In this document: piece after piece, positions 4,721 to 61,668 of the stretch
How the letters are laid out: each line of letters opens with the position of its first letter
How positions within the stretch are numbered: position 1 is the stretch's first letter
Assembly: GCA_026707325.1 (NCBI GenBank)
Contig: JAPOXA010000007.1
Span: 56,798 to 120,797 of the forward strand
Direction: 5' to 3'
Length of the DNA: 64,000 bases
Source of the DNA: Acidobacteriota bacterium
GTDB taxonomy: Bacteria; Acidobacteriota; Thermoanaerobaculia; Multivoradales; Multivoraceae
Made by a program: the position numbers and the translations under genes
Notes under the pieces: generated by a model
Seen by the model: only the letters and a program-made list of their open reading frames with translations
Database searches by the model: none
What the model was told of the DNA's origin: nothing

Positions 4721-6322
<1,602 letters not shown>

Positions 6323-6397
6323 ACCACAGGCGCGCAAGGGGAACCTCACGTACCGCCGGCGGCCGGTTCCGCACGAAGTACCCCTAGAATCCAGGCG

Positions 6398-7738
6398 ATG
6401 AGGTCGAACGCCAACGGTGCCGAGCAGCGGCCGCTGCTGACCTCCGACGTTGCCGCCCCGGCCGACGCCCTGACCCGACTGGTCGCCCGCGGAGACCAGG
6501 AGTTCGAGGCGTTCTTCGAGCGCGTCGAGAGCGTCGAGCTGCTGCCGAAGGGCGCTCCCAACCGTGTCCGGCTGAGGAAGGAACAGGGGCTCGCGGTGAG
6601 GAAGATCGAGAACGGGAGGAGCCGTCTGGCGGCGGCCGACACGATCTCGGGACCCGCCTTCGCCGCCTGCTGCGACCGGGTGGCGGGAACGACGCGGTCG
6701 ATCGGCACGACACCGCCGCGAATCAGGACCGGCAGGTGGCCGGCGCTGCGCCTGGCCCAGATCGAACAGGCGGAATCCAGGCTCACCCGCGCCGTGAACC
6801 GGCGGCGCGTCGGATTCCCGATGGAGATCACCGCGCGCCGTCATCGCCGGCAGGTACAGGTCATCCGCAGCCGGATGGCCGCGCCGCCGCAGTTCGAGGA
6901 GTACTTCAGCCTGCACGTGAAGACGCCGTGGGGCGTCTGGGGCGGTCTGCTGCCGTCGCTCGCGGCCGAGGACCTGGACCCGGTCGCCCTCTGCCTCGTC
7001 GACCGGCTGCGCTCGCGAGGCCTGCCGCCCCACCGGCCCGGTCCCGGCGTCATCGTCCTCGGGCCCAACGCCGCCGCGGTCCTGCTCCACGAAGTCGTCG
7101 CGCACGCGCTGGAGGCGGACACCCTGGCCCTCTCCGGCTCTCCGGACCAGGTTGTCGGGCTGAAGCTCGGTGGCCCCGAGCTCGACGTGGTCGACGATCC
7201 GCGTTCCGCGCCGCTGGCCTGCAAGCGCTCGAGCGACGACGAGGGCACGGCGACGATCAGCCGCTGGCTGCTCAGGCGCGGCCGGGTCCGGCAACCCCTG
7301 GCCGACCTTGCCTGGGCCGAGCGCTGCCCGAGCATGATCCCGGGCGCCGCCCGCCGGGCGAGCCGGCATCGGCTCCCCGGACCGCGCACCACCCACCTCG
7401 AACTGCTTCCCGGCGCCATTCCCGAGAGGGAGCTCTTCGCCGAGGCCGCGGGCGGCCTCTACATCGGCGAGTTCGACAGGGGCAATCTGGATCCCTTCGA
7501 CGGCCGGTGCGTGCTCCGGGCGCCGTGCGGCCGGCGAATCGGAGCGACCGGACCGCGTGACCACACGGGTCCGATCGAGATCCGGTCGCGGGCCGTCGAT
7601 CTTCTCGCGGCGGTCGCCGCGGTCGGGGATCGTCCGCTCGCGGGCGGCGCCGGTTGGTGCGCGAAGGACGGCGCACTGCTGCCGGTCTGGGCCCGCTGCC
7701 CGTCGGTCCGCCTCGAAGGACTGCAGGTGGCCGATTGA
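6398..7738 (+). CDS. TldD/PmbA-family protein, TldD-like member with HExxxH
   Basis: [14 protein letters not shown] matches the TldD metal-binding HExxxHxxxxD pattern; C-terminal [10 protein letters not shown] typical of TldD/PmbA. Confidence 0.75.
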
Positions 7739-9165
7739 AGTCCGCTCGGCTGCCCGGCACGCGGAGCCTCAAGCTGGCCTTGGGCGCGGTGCGCGAGCGG
7801 ACCGGCGCCGCCGGTGCCGAGCTCTACGTGAAGGTCGGACGGACCCGCCGGATAGAGATCGATCCCTGGACGACGCCCCCGCCCGCCGACCCGGACGACC
7901 TGCCTGCCCAGGTGTCCATCCTGGACGAGCGGGGGTGGGCGCTGCGCGCCGGAGGCGCCAACCGCGCCCTTTTTCTCGCCGACTCCGGGCCCCTCCCGGA
8001 GCCGAACGGATGGAAGCGCCTCAGCCGCCACTCCCTGCGGCCGGGCACCCTCAGGCTGCCGGCGCCATCCCCCGAAACCTCGCCCGGGACTACGCCGTCC
8101 GCGAGTGCCGGCGCGGGCGAACGCGAGCCGGACGACGAGGAAGCGGCCGGCCTGGCACTCCTGCAAGGCGTCCTGCGGCGTCTCGGCGAGCGCATGCCCG
8201 AGGCCCGTCTCATCCGGGGTCGGCTGGATTGCGGAGCCAGCGCCGCGGTGCTCGCCAGCACGACCGGCGTCACCGGACGGACCGCGCTGCGGCTCGCAAC
8301 GGTTGAACTGGACTTCGCCGCTTCACGGGACGGCCGTCTTGGACACTGCAGGCTCTACCGCGCGGCCTCGAACCTCCACCTGCTCAGCGCCGACTCCATC
8401 GCGAGCGAGATCGCGGAGCGTCTGACGCTGGTGACGGCCCCCGCTCCACCCTTCCTGCCGGCCGGCGAGGTCGCCGTGTCGCCGGCACTCGGCTGCTACC
8501 TGCTGGCCCTGCTCGCGCCTCTGCTGCGGGGGCGCAACGGCTGGCGGCGGCTGCGGAAACTCGGCGCCGACCGGCCGCTCGGGCCGCCGCAATTGCAGAT
8601 CGTGGACGACGGCGCCCTCGATGCGGGCTGGATGAGCGCGGCGCTGGACGACGAGGGCGTGCCGACCCGGGCCGTGGCCCTGGTACACGACGGCGAACCC
8701 GGCGAGCCCCTCCTGAGCTGGGAGGACGACGGCTGGTCGGGCTTCGCCGCCGCCGGCTGCCGGCGCAGGTCGGGATGGCGAGCGCTACCGGAACTCTGCC
8801 ACTCCCACCTCTACATCGCGGGCGGCTCCGAACCCGCGGAGTCGATCCGGACCGGCATCGTGCATGGCTGCTACCTGCTGGACAGGGTGCCCGACGGCCA
8901 GTGTCATGCGACGTTCGAACCCTCGACGAACGGCAGCGCAGGACGTCTGGGAGAGGGACACTTCAAAGTCGACGCGATCGGCCTGGTCATCCGTCGCGGC
9001 GCCGTCCTGGGCGAGGCCCCCAGGGTGAGGCTGACCGGCTCCGTGCGGCAACTGCTCCAGGGCATCCGCGCCATCGGCGACGATCTTCGCTTCCTGCCCG
9101 CGCCCGGGGCAGTCGGCGCTCCGACCCTGCTGCTGACCGGGCTGCAGGTCGAGGCGATCGGCTAG
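7735..9165 (+). CDS. TldD/PmbA-family protein, TldE(PmbA)-like member without HExxxH
   Basis: C-terminal [42 protein letters not shown]...[12 protein letters not shown]; inferred TTG start overlapping upstream TGA. Confidence 0.65.
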
Positions 9166-9180
9166 GTCGGACAGCATGGT

Positions 9181-9270
9181 CGCCGCTTCGCGGCGTTTTC
9201 TTCCGCGGGTCAGAAGACCCACGGTCACCTGCCTGCGGCGCAAGTTCACCGGGGGTCAGAAGACCCCCGG
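9181..9270. repeat. modular intergenic hairpin repeat, locus a (module A + two copies of module B)
   Basis: CGCCGCTTCGCGGCG 9181..9195; GCGGGTCAGAAGACCCAC 9205..9222; CCGGGGGTCAGAAGACCCCCGG 9249..9270. Confidence 0.85.
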
Positions 9271-9290
9271 CTACAGACCCGCGCACCCAG

Positions 9291-10544
9291 CTACGGGGCG
9301 GGGACCGGGTGGCGGCGGATCGTCGTCTCGAGCTGCGCGCTGCTGCGAGCGCTGGGCTGGAAACGTCCACCGCTGCCGCGGAAAGTCCCGGCCGCGGGAG
9401 GAGTCGACTGCCTGCCGCCGGGGCCGACCGGCGTTCCGAGCTGAACGCCGCCGCGGGAACCCCCGAGCGGGATCGCCTGTGCCGGAGCGCCGCCCGGCCG
9501 CGCACCGGTCACCATGGGAGCGGCTCCGAGCGTGCGCGTTCGCAGGTGATCCCGGGTGAAGACCCGCGGCCGCTCCCCGGTGCGCCCTGCGTCCGACTCA
9601 CGCTCAGAGTCGGCGGTTTGCAGCTTTGCGTCGCCGGCGTCCCAGTCCGTTTCGAGGGCCTGGAGGGGAGCGGCGCGGTCGAGCGGCCCGTTCAGGACAC
9701 GGTCGCTGGTGGCCGGCGCCGGCAAGCTCCCCGGCGACTGGATCACTCTTCTTATGCCGTCGGCGCGCGCGCCCTCGCCTCCGGGCACCCGGCTCGCTCT
9801 CCGGGGAAGATCCCCGTCCGGCTCGGACGTCTCTGTTGCCTCCGCCGCCTCGACGGCGCCGCCCGCGTCACCGGCCGCCGCTTCCTGCTCCACCCTCGGC
9901 AACAGCAGGCTGCTGATGCGGCCCGGTTGGGAGTAGGTGCGCGGCGGCAGGGTCTCGAGCCGGCTTCGGTCCGCCTTGAGGAGCACTTCGGTGGCGAACC
10001 GGTTGACCGCGAAGTGCGGGTTCACATCGGTGAAGGCGAGGCGCGTGTCCAGGCTCAGGGCGTGGACGTAGTGATCCACGGCAGCGGCCGCGTCTCCGTC
10101 GTCGTCCGCGATCCGGCCGAGCTGGTAATGCGCCCAGGCGTTCCCCGGATCGAGTTCGACCGCCGTCTCGAGGTGCGCCGAGGCCAGCTCACTGTCGCCG
10201 GTCGTGTACGCGAGCAGCGCCAGGTTGTAGTGCGCGGGCGCCCAGGCGCCGTCCGCCGCGATCGCGGCCAGGTAGTGCTCGAACGCCCCCTCGACATCCC
10301 CGCGCAGTTCCAGCAGGTTCGCCAGGTCGTTCAGCGCGCTCGCGCGATCCGCGGACCGGGTCTGCTCGCCGACCACCTTGCGCTGCGCCGCGATCGCCAG
10401 GTCGAGGTTCCGGACCTCCGCCGTCGCAGGCTCGACCGTCTGCGCCGCGCCCTCCGGAACACCGCCGACCGGCAGGCCCGGCCCGGCCATCAGCCAGGCC
10501 AGCGCCAGCACCATCGCTCTCGACATCGTCTTCATGGCAGTCAT
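9291..10544 (-). CDS. secreted/periplasmic TPR-repeat protein
   Basis: signal peptide plus repeated TPR pattern (APAHYNLALLAYTTGDSELASAHLETAVELDPGNAWAHYQLGRIADDDGD). Confidence 0.75.
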   Translation of the reverse strand: MTAMKTMSRAMVLALAWLMAGPGLPVGGVPEGAAQTVEPATAEVRNLDLAIAAQRKVVGEQTRSADRASALNDLANLLELRGDVEGAFEHYLAAIAADGAWAPAHYNLALLAYTTGDSELASAHLETAVELDPGNAWAHYQLGRIADDDGDAAAAVDHYVHALSLDTRLAFTDVNPHFAVNRFATEVLLKADRSRLETLPPRTYSQPGRISSLLLPRVEQEAAAGDAGGAVEAAEATETSEPDGDLPRRASRVPGGEGARADGIRRVIQSPGSLPAPATSDRVLNGPLDRAAPLQALETDWDAGDAKLQTADSERESDAGRTGERPRVFTRDHLRTRTLGAAPMVTGARPGGAPAQAIPLGGSRGGVQLGTPVGPGGRQSTPPAAGTFRGSGGRFQPSARSSAQLETTIRRHPVPAP

Positions 10545-59353: not shown

Positions 59354-59423
59354 TGGTGGGGAGACGCTAACAGCCTGAGGACGACACGGGTGTAGGCTCA
59401 CGGCAGGAGGCAGGAGGGAACAC

Positions 59424-60497
59424 ATGGCAGAGCCAGCGCGAATCGACGTTCACACCGCGGAAGGAGCCCCGCATCGTCGTCCCGTCTCGGCGAACAGCGG
59501 CGGCGACCTGAGAGAGGCGCTCGACGACTTCCTCGAGCTGAAGGAGATGGTCGCGGCCCAGGAGGGAGATCGTGCCCTGCACGATCAGCCGCAGATGGTG
59601 AGTCGCTTCTACGATGTCGTCACGAAGTTCTATGAGTACGGCTGGGGGCAGTCGTTCCATTTCTCCCCACGACGGTCCGGCGAGAGCCTCCGAGACGCCG
59701 TCCGCCGTCACGAGATCAGCATCGGCGAACTCCTGGCTCTGCGGCCGGGAACGAAGGTCGCCGACATCGGATGCGGTGTCGCCGGGCCGCTGGTCACGAT
59801 CGCGAACTCCGCCGGCGCAAGCATCACGGGGATCAACCTCAACGCGTACCAGATCGCGAGAGGCCAGCGATCGCTGCGCCGCGCCGGCCTTCAGGAAACA
59901 TGCGGTTTCCTGCTCGCCAGCTTCATGGACGTGCCCGTCGACGACGGCTACTTCGATGCCGCCTATTCGTTCGAATCCACTTGCCACGCACCCGACAAGA
60001 CCCTGTGTTTCAAGGAGCTCTATCGGCTGCTCAGGCCGGGAGGCGAGCTTGCCCTGATCGACTGGTGCCTGACCGAAGACTTCGACGAGCACGACCCGGT
60101 CCATCGCGACATTCGGGACCGACTCGAGTTCGGAAACGCGACGCCCAACCTGCTCATGACCTCCAGCCAACTCGACCTCGTTCGAGCCGTCGGTTTCGAG
60201 ATTCTCTCGAGCCGTGACCAGGCACTCGAGTGCGATCCGAACACTCCCTGGTACCGCTCGCTGCAGGGGCGCGACCTTTCGCTCGCGTCACTCGGGCGGA
60301 TCCCCGCCGGCCGGTGGTTCACGGCCACGGCGACGAGCCTGCTGGAGCTGCTCCGCATCGCACCCTCCGGCACCGGAGAGGCCGCCCGGATCCTCAACGT
60401 GGCCGCCGACGCTCTCGTCGAGGCCGGCGTGGCGGGGATCTTCACGCCGTCCTTCCTGATCCACGCGCGCAAACCGGACGGCTCCGTCTCTTCATAG
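59424..60497 (+). CDS. sterol 24-C-methyltransferase-like SAM-dependent methyltransferase
   Basis: FYEYGWGQSFHFSPR (SMT region I), VADIGCGVAGPLVTIANSAGASITGINLNAYQIARG, SFESTCHAPDK, IDWCLTEDFDEHDPVHRDI. Confidence 0.85.
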   Translation: MAEPARIDVHTAEGAPHRRPVSANSGGDLREALDDFLELKEMVAAQEGDRALHDQPQMVSRFYDVVTKFYEYGWGQSFHFSPRRSGESLRDAVRRHEISIGELLALRPGTKVADIGCGVAGPLVTIANSAGASITGINLNAYQIARGQRSLRRAGLQETCGFLLASFMDVPVDDGYFDAAYSFESTCHAPDKTLCFKELYRLLRPGGELALIDWCLTEDFDEHDPVHRDIRDRLEFGNATPNLLMTSSQLDLVRAVGFEILSSRDQALECDPNTPWYRSLQGRDLSLASLGRIPAGRWFTATATSLLELLRIAPSGTGEAARILNVAADALVEAGVAGIFTPSFLIHARKPDGSVSS

Positions 60498-60513
60498 CGG
60501 TTGGAGGTCCATC

Positions 60514-61668
60514 GTGGGCTTCAGGACTCGCCGTTCAAGGCGCCGCGAACCCCAGACATCGGACGACCTACGTCTCGCCAGCTATCCCCATCCCTATCCG
60601 GACGGCTGGTACCGGCTGATGACCTCGAAGTCGCTCCGGCGCGGGCAGATCCGCTACTTCGAATGTCTCGGACGCGCCCTGGTCGTCTGGCGCAGCGAAG
60701 ACTCGGACGACGTGCATGCGATGCAGGCGTTCTGCCCCCACCTCGGCGCGAACCTCCGGCATGGCCGCGTCCGCGAGGACCGCATCGAGTGCCCGTTCCA
60801 CAACTGGCAGTTCACGGGCGACGGCCGGGCGGCCTGCGTGCCCTACAGCGACAGCGTACCGACCCGCGTCGCGACCGAGAGCTTTCCGGTACAGGACGTG
60901 CATGGGCAGATCTTCATGTATCACCGAAGCGACGGCGCCAAACAGCAGGCCGGCGACGAGGTGCCGTATCCCGTGCCGCGGCTGCCGGAGATCGACGACG
61001 GGAGGTTCGTCTTCCGGGGGCACTACGACGCCGGCCGCGTCCACATGCACATCATCGAGTTCGTCGAGAACGCAGTCGACTTTGCCCACTTCATGTACAT
61101 CCACGAACGGATGAACGTTCCCTGGACGCAGATCCCGGTCCCCGGTGTAGCGATCGAACACATCCCCGGCGTCGAGTTCCCCGAGGACCGGCCGTGGACG
61201 ATGCACTTCCTCGACGAGGCCGTGCTCAAGTTCCGCGGCCGTCCTCTCGAACGGACACGGACAAGGGCTCGGGCCACGTTCACCGGCGCCGCCAGCATCG
61301 TGAACTTCAGGTTCTTCATTCCCGATACCGGCGAGATCGACCTCTGTCAGACCCACCTTCCGATCTCGCCTCTAGAGCAGCAGGTCGACTTCCACTGGTT
61401 CGCCGACCGAAGGGTCCCGCGGCTGCTGGCCTGGTACGTCGTCGGCAACTGGATCTCCCAGTGGCGCCACGACATCCAGATCTGGGAGAACAAGACCTAT
61501 CTCGACCACCCGACCCTCTGCCGGGACGACGGACCCGTGGTCCGCATGCGACGCTGGTACCGGCAGTTCTTTCCGGACCCGCAACCGCCGGGGAAGCCGC
61601 CCGGAATGCCGCGGCGGGAACCGAGCGAGCGTGCTGAAGGCCGGCTGGTCGGTGCAGCCTCCAACTGA
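60514..61668 (+). CDS. Rieske [2Fe-2S] aromatic-ring-type oxygenase resembling sterol (DAF-36/Neverland/SdmA-like) oxygenases
   Basis: CPHLGANLRHG...CPFHNWQFTGDG Rieske ligands; ENAVDFAHFMYIH mononuclear Fe site; IQIWENKTYLDHPTLCRDDGPVVRMRRWYRQFFPDP; GTG start with GGAGG upstream. Confidence 0.82.
   Translation: MGFRTRRSRRREPQTSDDLRLASYPHPYPDGWYRLMTSKSLRRGQIRYFECLGRALVVWRSEDSDDVHAMQAFCPHLGANLRHGRVREDRIECPFHNWQFTGDGRAACVPYSDSVPTRVATESFPVQDVHGQIFMYHRSDGAKQQAGDEVPYPVPRLPEIDDGRFVFRGHYDAGRVHMHIIEFVENAVDFAHFMYIHERMNVPWTQIPVPGVAIEHIPGVEFPEDRPWTMHFLDEAVLKFRGRPLERTRTRARATFTGAASIVNFRFFIPDTGEIDLCQTHLPISPLEQQVDFHWFADRRVPRLLAWYVVGNWISQWRHDIQIWENKTYLDHPTLCRDDGPVVRMRRWYRQFFPDPQPPGKPPGMPRREPSERAEGRLVGAASN

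Follow-up and report, generated by a model that had tools for sequence, protein, structure and literature searches.

Steranes alkylated at C-24 serve as tracers of early animals and algae. Sterol 24-C-methyltransferases (SMTs) that are active in vitro have been described from uncultured bacteria (Brown et al. 2023, PMC10070321), and one Chlamydiae MAG encodes an active SMT but no other sterol synthesis genes (PMC10070321). In Ircinia, the genes SMT1/ERG6, ERG24, LSS, and CYP51 are enriched in bacterial MAGs (Kelly et al. 2022, PMC9531527), and a sponge metagenome yielded a cluster that unites an epoxidase-oxidosqualene cyclase (OSC) fusion, a sterol reductase, a Rieske protein, and an SMT (PMC7074536). 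Sponge-associated chlamydiae likewise carry sterol reductases (PMC9666466). A further system, in Capsaspora, converts external cholesterol by means of a Rieske C7-desaturase, a P450, and an SMT (PMC4967820).

The locus described here lies in a 64,000-nucleotide stretch of DNA from an Acidobacteriota genome (the stretch is referred to as the window and the genome as G000). It comprises the following features:

59412..59417, plus strand: Shine-Dalgarno-like AGGAGG upstream of SMT1 (sequence reading)
59424..60497, plus strand: SMT1, a sterol 24-C-methyltransferase family protein of 357 aa (PF08498, identity to reference SMTs, tree, genus orthologues)
60503..60508, plus strand: Shine-Dalgarno-like GGAGGT in the 16-nt gap, upstream of the GTG start of the Rieske gene (sequence reading)
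60514..61668, plus strand: KshA-type Rieske oxygenase of 384 aa with a GTG start (PF00355, PF19298, PDB KshA 4qdf)

Both open reading frames are real at the positions given by the first-pass annotation, and all motifs quoted there are found in the sequence. Chance ORFs were ruled out by the Pfam matches and by genus-wide orthologues, which are under purifying selection (dN/dS of 0.06-0.33 in most pairs, and 0.46 in one pair with very low dS). The 16-nt spacing and the Shine-Dalgarno-like sequence before each frame make it likely that the two genes form an operon; the surrounding genes in the window are unrelated. The nearest records that bear a name are MAGs labeled Holophagales, Thermoanaerobaculia, or Acidobacteria bacterium. 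The MAG prefixes RHO and CO would stand for Rhopaloeides odorabile and Coscinoderma matthewsi, which were sampled together with Ircinia ramosa (PMC8163846). On the basis of these names and of that sponge list, rather than of stated hosts, the genus is apparently sponge-associated.

The methyltransferase belongs to the SMT family, in agreement with the first-pass annotation. Its C-terminal Sterol_MT_C domain (PF08498) scores 67.6 bits against a cut-off of 21.7 (1e-18, Pfam) and accompanies a SAM-methyltransferase domain (Methyltransf_11, 66.1 bits). The PF08498 match is specific, being present in 15 of 396 Acidobacteriota genomes, which represent 3 of 210 genera, and in none of 14 control genomes. 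Comparisons with the reference SMTs used for identities, tree, and alignment (Erg6, AtSMT1, and AtSMT2) are to be taken as leads: SMT1 shares 36-39% identity with them over about 300 aligned aa, with 39.5% over 337 aa to Arabidopsis SMT1, 38% to Arabidopsis SMT2, and 36% to yeast Erg6. The first value resembles the 40% identity between the two Arabidopsis proteins. In a maximum-likelihood tree, SMT1 falls among the SMTs, and all SMTs are separated from generic methyltransferases by a branch of moderate support (88/66). A generic small-molecule methyltransferase was excluded by the Sterol_MT_C domain and the full-length SMT similarity, as generic enzymes of related genomes match only a core of 110-190 aa, at about 33% identity. 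The characteristic motifs of SMT1 are located as follows:

aa 70: region I, YEYGWGQSFHF
aa 116: SAM motif, GCGVAGP
aa 184: ESTCHAP
aa 212: IDWC block
aa 340: C-terminal FTPSF

In the alignment with the reference SMTs, regions I-III (YEYGWG..FHF, the SAM motif, and E.TCHAP) are conserved together with the catalytic acidic and aromatic residues. SMT1 keeps Erg6 residues Y81, E82, W85, H90, F91, H107, E108, D125, C128, D189, Y192, E195, and H199, and departs from Erg6 in region IV (Y223 to I and E224 to D) and at D152, which is replaced by A. A structure model of SMT1 (pLDDT 73.5) matches only generic small-molecule and terpene methyltransferases. It is uninformative on the substrate, because a sequence search of the PDB found no eukaryotic-type sterol methyltransferase. 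PHROGs likewise gives generic methyltransferase matches only. From the family assignment and the conserved motifs, we infer that SMT1 probably adds a carbon to C-24 of a sterol.

Comparison of the window with its orthologues (L049-L067) showed that SMT1 and the adjacent Rieske oxygenase each exist in two allele classes, with 72-80% identity between classes and mostly 80-99% within them. In region IV, the YEW motif reads IDW in the window protein, so that two of three positions differ, and TEW in class b, which additionally alters H107 or E108. All four combinations of SMT1 and Rieske allele classes are found among the genomes, a sign of recombination between the two adjoining genes, and the classes perhaps reflect differing substrate preferences. 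Related sequences also occur outside the genus. A Gemmatimonadetes MAG contains a stretch of 77 residues that is 68% identical to SMT1, in an ORF that is elsewhere out-of-frame (L068 6023-6547), which we regard as an SMT1 that has decayed or been misassembled; this MAG belongs to a different phylum. A genome from another genus of the same family (G023, L033) contains a partial SMT with 47% identity to SMT1, whose region IV, ASYEWCLT, is closer to the eukaryotic form.

The second protein of the pair contains a Rieske domain (PF00355, 7e-22) and a KshA_C domain (PF19298, 2e-23; both Pfam), and aligns over residues 21-358 with the KshA structure 4qdf (1e-40, PDB). Its [2Fe-2S] ligands (C74-x-H76 and C93-x2-H96) and its mononuclear-iron motif (N186-x2-D189-x2-H192-x4-H197, with D320 in HDIQIW) are in place, and the metal ligands are invariant across both Rieske paralogues. 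Judged by its sequence, the protein is a complete KshA-type oxygenase and not an SdmA-type enzyme. An SdmA identity, a type named in the first-pass annotation, was rejected, as the protein reaches 52.6 bits against the NF052579 (NCBIfam) cut-off of 600, and the true SdmA of this genome lies on another contig, C12. The tail motif that had been likened to DAF-36/Neverland is indeed present, but the alignment with 4qdf shows that this likeness is equally typical of KshA. PHROGs returned nothing for the window Rieske, and no reductase gene adjoins it.

A search of the remaining genome for squalene epoxidase and OSC, which the first-pass annotation had advised, recovered two pairs of these genes along with CYP51, SdmA, and a sterol reductase. 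G000 (5.1 Mb, 97% complete) contains four cyclase-family genes: two encode the squalene-hopene cyclase motif DDTA, and the other two the OSC motif DCTAE. The DCTAE proteins score 734-758 bits for TIGR03463, which is below the curated cut-off of 851, whereas the hopene cyclases reach roughly 230 bits. A squalene epoxidase gene adjoins each of the two OSC genes, both of which lie on contigs other than that of the window. On contig C12, the gene order is OSC (6e-131 to human lanosterol synthase), squalene epoxidase, CYP51 (9e-99, PDB), and SdmA (386 bits against the NF052579 cut-off of 600), while an ERG24-type sterol reductase is encoded on contig C3. With these genes, G000 probably can make sterols de novo.

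The C12 genes (L011 1696-13631) have as neighbors a relaxase, a DUF772 transposase domain, a cytosine methylase, and an ApaLI-like nuclease. This neighborhood suggests a mobile sterol-synthesis cluster. Contig C12 might represent a plasmid or have been misbinned from another strain, but G013 has the same four genes clustered on a contig of 236 kb, on which its ERG24 gene is found as well. The second OSC-epoxidase pair of G000 is located on contig C171, and its OSC is 83% identical to the C12 copy. In G018, squalene epoxidase and OSC are fused in a single 1162-aa ORF, which adjoins two AcrB-like RND pump genes (L168, contig C22, 8076-17887). A further G000 locus on contig C103 (L013 6051-11201) contains a squalene-hopene cyclase gene followed by a GPP34-cytochrome P450 fusion and a sulfotransferase, and looks like a sulfated-triterpenoid cluster. 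A homologous fusion adjoins SMT2, a paralogue of SMT1 (L053 7823-9847).

Across the genus, the tailoring genes (SMT1, Rieske, and ERG4/ERG24) are core, and squalene epoxidase and OSC are accessory. Of the 21 genomes, 18 have an SMT1 orthologue, which is adjoined by the Rieske gene in 17, G009 being the exception. Full-length ERG4/ERG24 reductases also occur in 18 of the 21 genomes when both paralogues are counted; the ERG24a copies score 245-255 bits and match a delta-14 sterol reductase in the PDB (4e-65). Squalene epoxidase and OSC are restricted to three genomes of the genus (G000, G013, and G018), so that 3 of the 18 SMT1-bearing genomes have both and 15 lack them. This absence is not an assembly artefact, because both genes are also missing from G009 (near-closed, 3 contigs, 98% complete), G014 (7 contigs, 96%), and G004 (20 contigs, 98%). 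G009 nevertheless keeps SMT1, SMT2, and two ERG4/ERG24 reductases. An EBP sterol isomerase, which would have been extra support for the pathway, was not found in the genus. Two members, G015 and G019, lack SMT1, SMT2, and ERG4/ERG24.

The association between SMT and sterol reductase extends to the phylum. Among 396 Acidobacteriota genomes, full-length ERG4/ERG24 (short C-terminal matches being excluded from the count) is present in 14 of 15 genomes with an SMT and in none of the other 381, and the overlap holds when collapsed to genera (p = 1.4e-4). An independent genus of another family, represented by G255, also combines SMT and ERG4/ERG24 and lacks an OSC (best TIGR03463 match, 57 bits). 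OSC is otherwise found in one genome, G174, which has no SMT. Squalene-hopene-type cyclases are common across the phylum in genomes without ERG4/ERG24 or SMT.

About ten genomes of the genus additionally encode SMT2, which shares about 35% identity with SMT1. The SMT2 cluster contains an RND pump, the GPP34-P450 fusion, an FAD oxidase, and another KshA-type Rieske oxygenase. The presence of an SMT together with a KshA-type Rieske at two separate loci strengthens the functional link between these families. The gene for the second ERG4/ERG24 reductase comes after two genes of benzoyl-CoA epoxidation, boxC and boxB (841 and 832 bits; L164 in G009, 4879-9307). This order is repeated in L166 and L171 and appears to form an operon.

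We consider it fairly probable that the pair is an operon for sterol tailoring in a sponge-associated genus of Acidobacteriota; it would act mostly on sterols that the sponge supplies, and de novo synthesis would be an accessory trait. A sterol whose side chain has a delta-24 or delta-24(28) double bond would receive a carbon at C-24 from SMT1, with S-adenosylmethionine as the donor, the KshA-type Rieske enzyme would hydroxylate or desaturate the ring system, and the ERG4/ERG24-type reductase, encoded elsewhere in the genome, would reduce one double bond; the nature of the substrate, the positions modified, and the order of these steps are proposed from gene content. As SMTs need a side-chain double bond, the expected substrates are desmosterol or 24-methylene sterols and not cholesterol. 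Most genus members would depend on an external substrate, most simply of sponge origin, because they lack squalene epoxidase and OSC, while G000 and two relatives may additionally draw on their own lanosterol-type pathway. Two independent sterol-specific families occur together and the presence of the synthesis genes varies, which makes tailoring of acquired sterols the simplest explanation. Precedents for such use of acquired sterols are Capsaspora (PMC4967820), the Chlamydiae MAG with an active SMT (PMC10070321), and the reductases of sponge-associated chlamydiae (PMC9666466). The earlier suggestion that the organism makes or remodels sterols, possibly those of a host, was thus a good reading: synthesis genes were found, and the genus-wide pattern favors remodeling. 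Counted against acquired-sterol tailoring are the departures of SMT1 from characterized SMTs in region IV (Y223 and E224) and at D152, the further change of H107 or E108 in allele class b, the inactivity of some bacterial SMT homologues on desmosterol (PMC10070321), the lack of an EBP isomerase in the genus, and the fact that we identified no system dedicated to sterol uptake. The stricter proposal that the core pathway of the whole genus takes up, alkylates, oxidizes, and reduces host sterols and makes none is tentative, and we regard it as somewhat doubtful.

The pair could instead serve a de novo pathway of the organism itself, in which squalene is converted to lanosterol, demethylated by CYP51 and SdmA, and alkylated in the side chain by SMT1. 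G000 does encode two epoxidase/OSC pairs, CYP51, SdmA, and an ERG24-type reductase, but the first two steps are missing from 15 of 18 SMT1-bearing genomes, its cyclase genes reside on other contigs, one of them with a relaxase and a transposase domain as neighbors, and SMT1 and the Rieske gene sit among unrelated genes. We therefore consider this explanation unlikely.

The substrate might also be an isoprenoid other than a sterol. The triterpene methyltransferases of Botryococcus belong to the SMT family and methylate isoprenoids with isolated double bonds, and SMT1 could similarly act on squalene, a carotenoid, a quinone tail, or a triterpene derived from a squalene-hopene cyclase, with the Rieske enzyme oxidizing the product. 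The divergent region IV of SMT1, the one to three squalene-hopene-type cyclases of nearly all genus members, and the clustering of SMT2 with a GPP34-P450 fusion, a homologue of which comes after a squalene-hopene cyclase gene, are consistent with such a role. It is the full-length ERG4/ERG24 that tracks SMT across the phylum, however, while squalene-hopene-type cyclases are widespread without either, and a non-sterol substrate appears quite unlikely. Finally, the KshA_C domain and the full-length KshA match would fit a catabolic 3-ketosteroid 9-alpha-hydroxylase and a pair engaged in steroid degradation, and steroid degraders as well as divergent KshA clusters have been reported from sponges (PMC5790920). 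The degraders in that study are Actinobacteria and Proteobacteria only, side-chain methylation is anabolic and an odd partner for ring cleavage, and no further degradation gene was seen beside the pair, which renders this role very improbable.

A defined lineage with core tailoring and accessory synthesis leads to the prediction that symbionts modify the sterols of their host and do not provide them, and it cautions that a bacterial SMT gene does not imply sterol synthesis. If the genus indeed takes up and tailors host sterols without making any, the unusual side chains of some sponge sterols could result from synthesis by the host and tailoring by bacteria together, and some 24-alkylated sterane biomarkers would record symbiosis. 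The relevance to sterane biomarkers noted in the first-pass annotation had already been raised by Brown et al. 2023 (PMC10070321).

Bacterial SMTs and sterol genes in MAGs of sponge symbionts have been published before; what is new is the decoupling from synthesis and the conserved pairing with a Rieske oxygenase. In the collection of papers searched, none was found on the decoupling of tailoring and synthesis in this genus or on an SMT-KshA pair. SMT1 is homologous over its full length to eukaryotic SMTs (Erg6 and plant SMT1/SMT2) and has regions I-III and the C-terminal Sterol_MT_C domain in common with them, but differs from them in region IV (IDW instead of YEW) and in the replaced D152. 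The SMTs of Brown et al. (PMC10070321) were defined by at least 30% identity to yeast Erg6 and E <1e-50; SMT1, at 36% to Erg6, falls within these limits, and the sponge-symbiont setting is common to both. The putative enzymes described here belong to a defined Acidobacteriota genus in which SMT1 is core (18 of 21 genomes), partnered by a KshA-type Rieske, and mostly cyclase-free. The window Rieske resembles KshA (PDB 4qdf and 2zyl) in its Rieske and KshA_C domains, all metal ligands, and the C-terminal NK..D.P.L..DDGPV..RRWY.QF motif, but KshA is only a distant full-length match, and the window protein partners an SMT instead of degradation genes. For the Ircinia symbionts (PMC9531527), SMT1/ERG6, ERG24, LSS, and CYP51 were reported too, with scattered genes and horizontal transfer noted as well; their ERG24-CYP51-LSS clusters were read as synthesis, whereas in the present genus the SMT-Rieske pair and ERG24 are retained even where LSS and epoxidase are missing. 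The closest functional parallel, likened by function, is provided by the DAF-36/Neverland C7-desaturases as found in Capsaspora (PMC4967820), where a Rieske enzyme, an SMT, and a P450 act on an acquired sterol.
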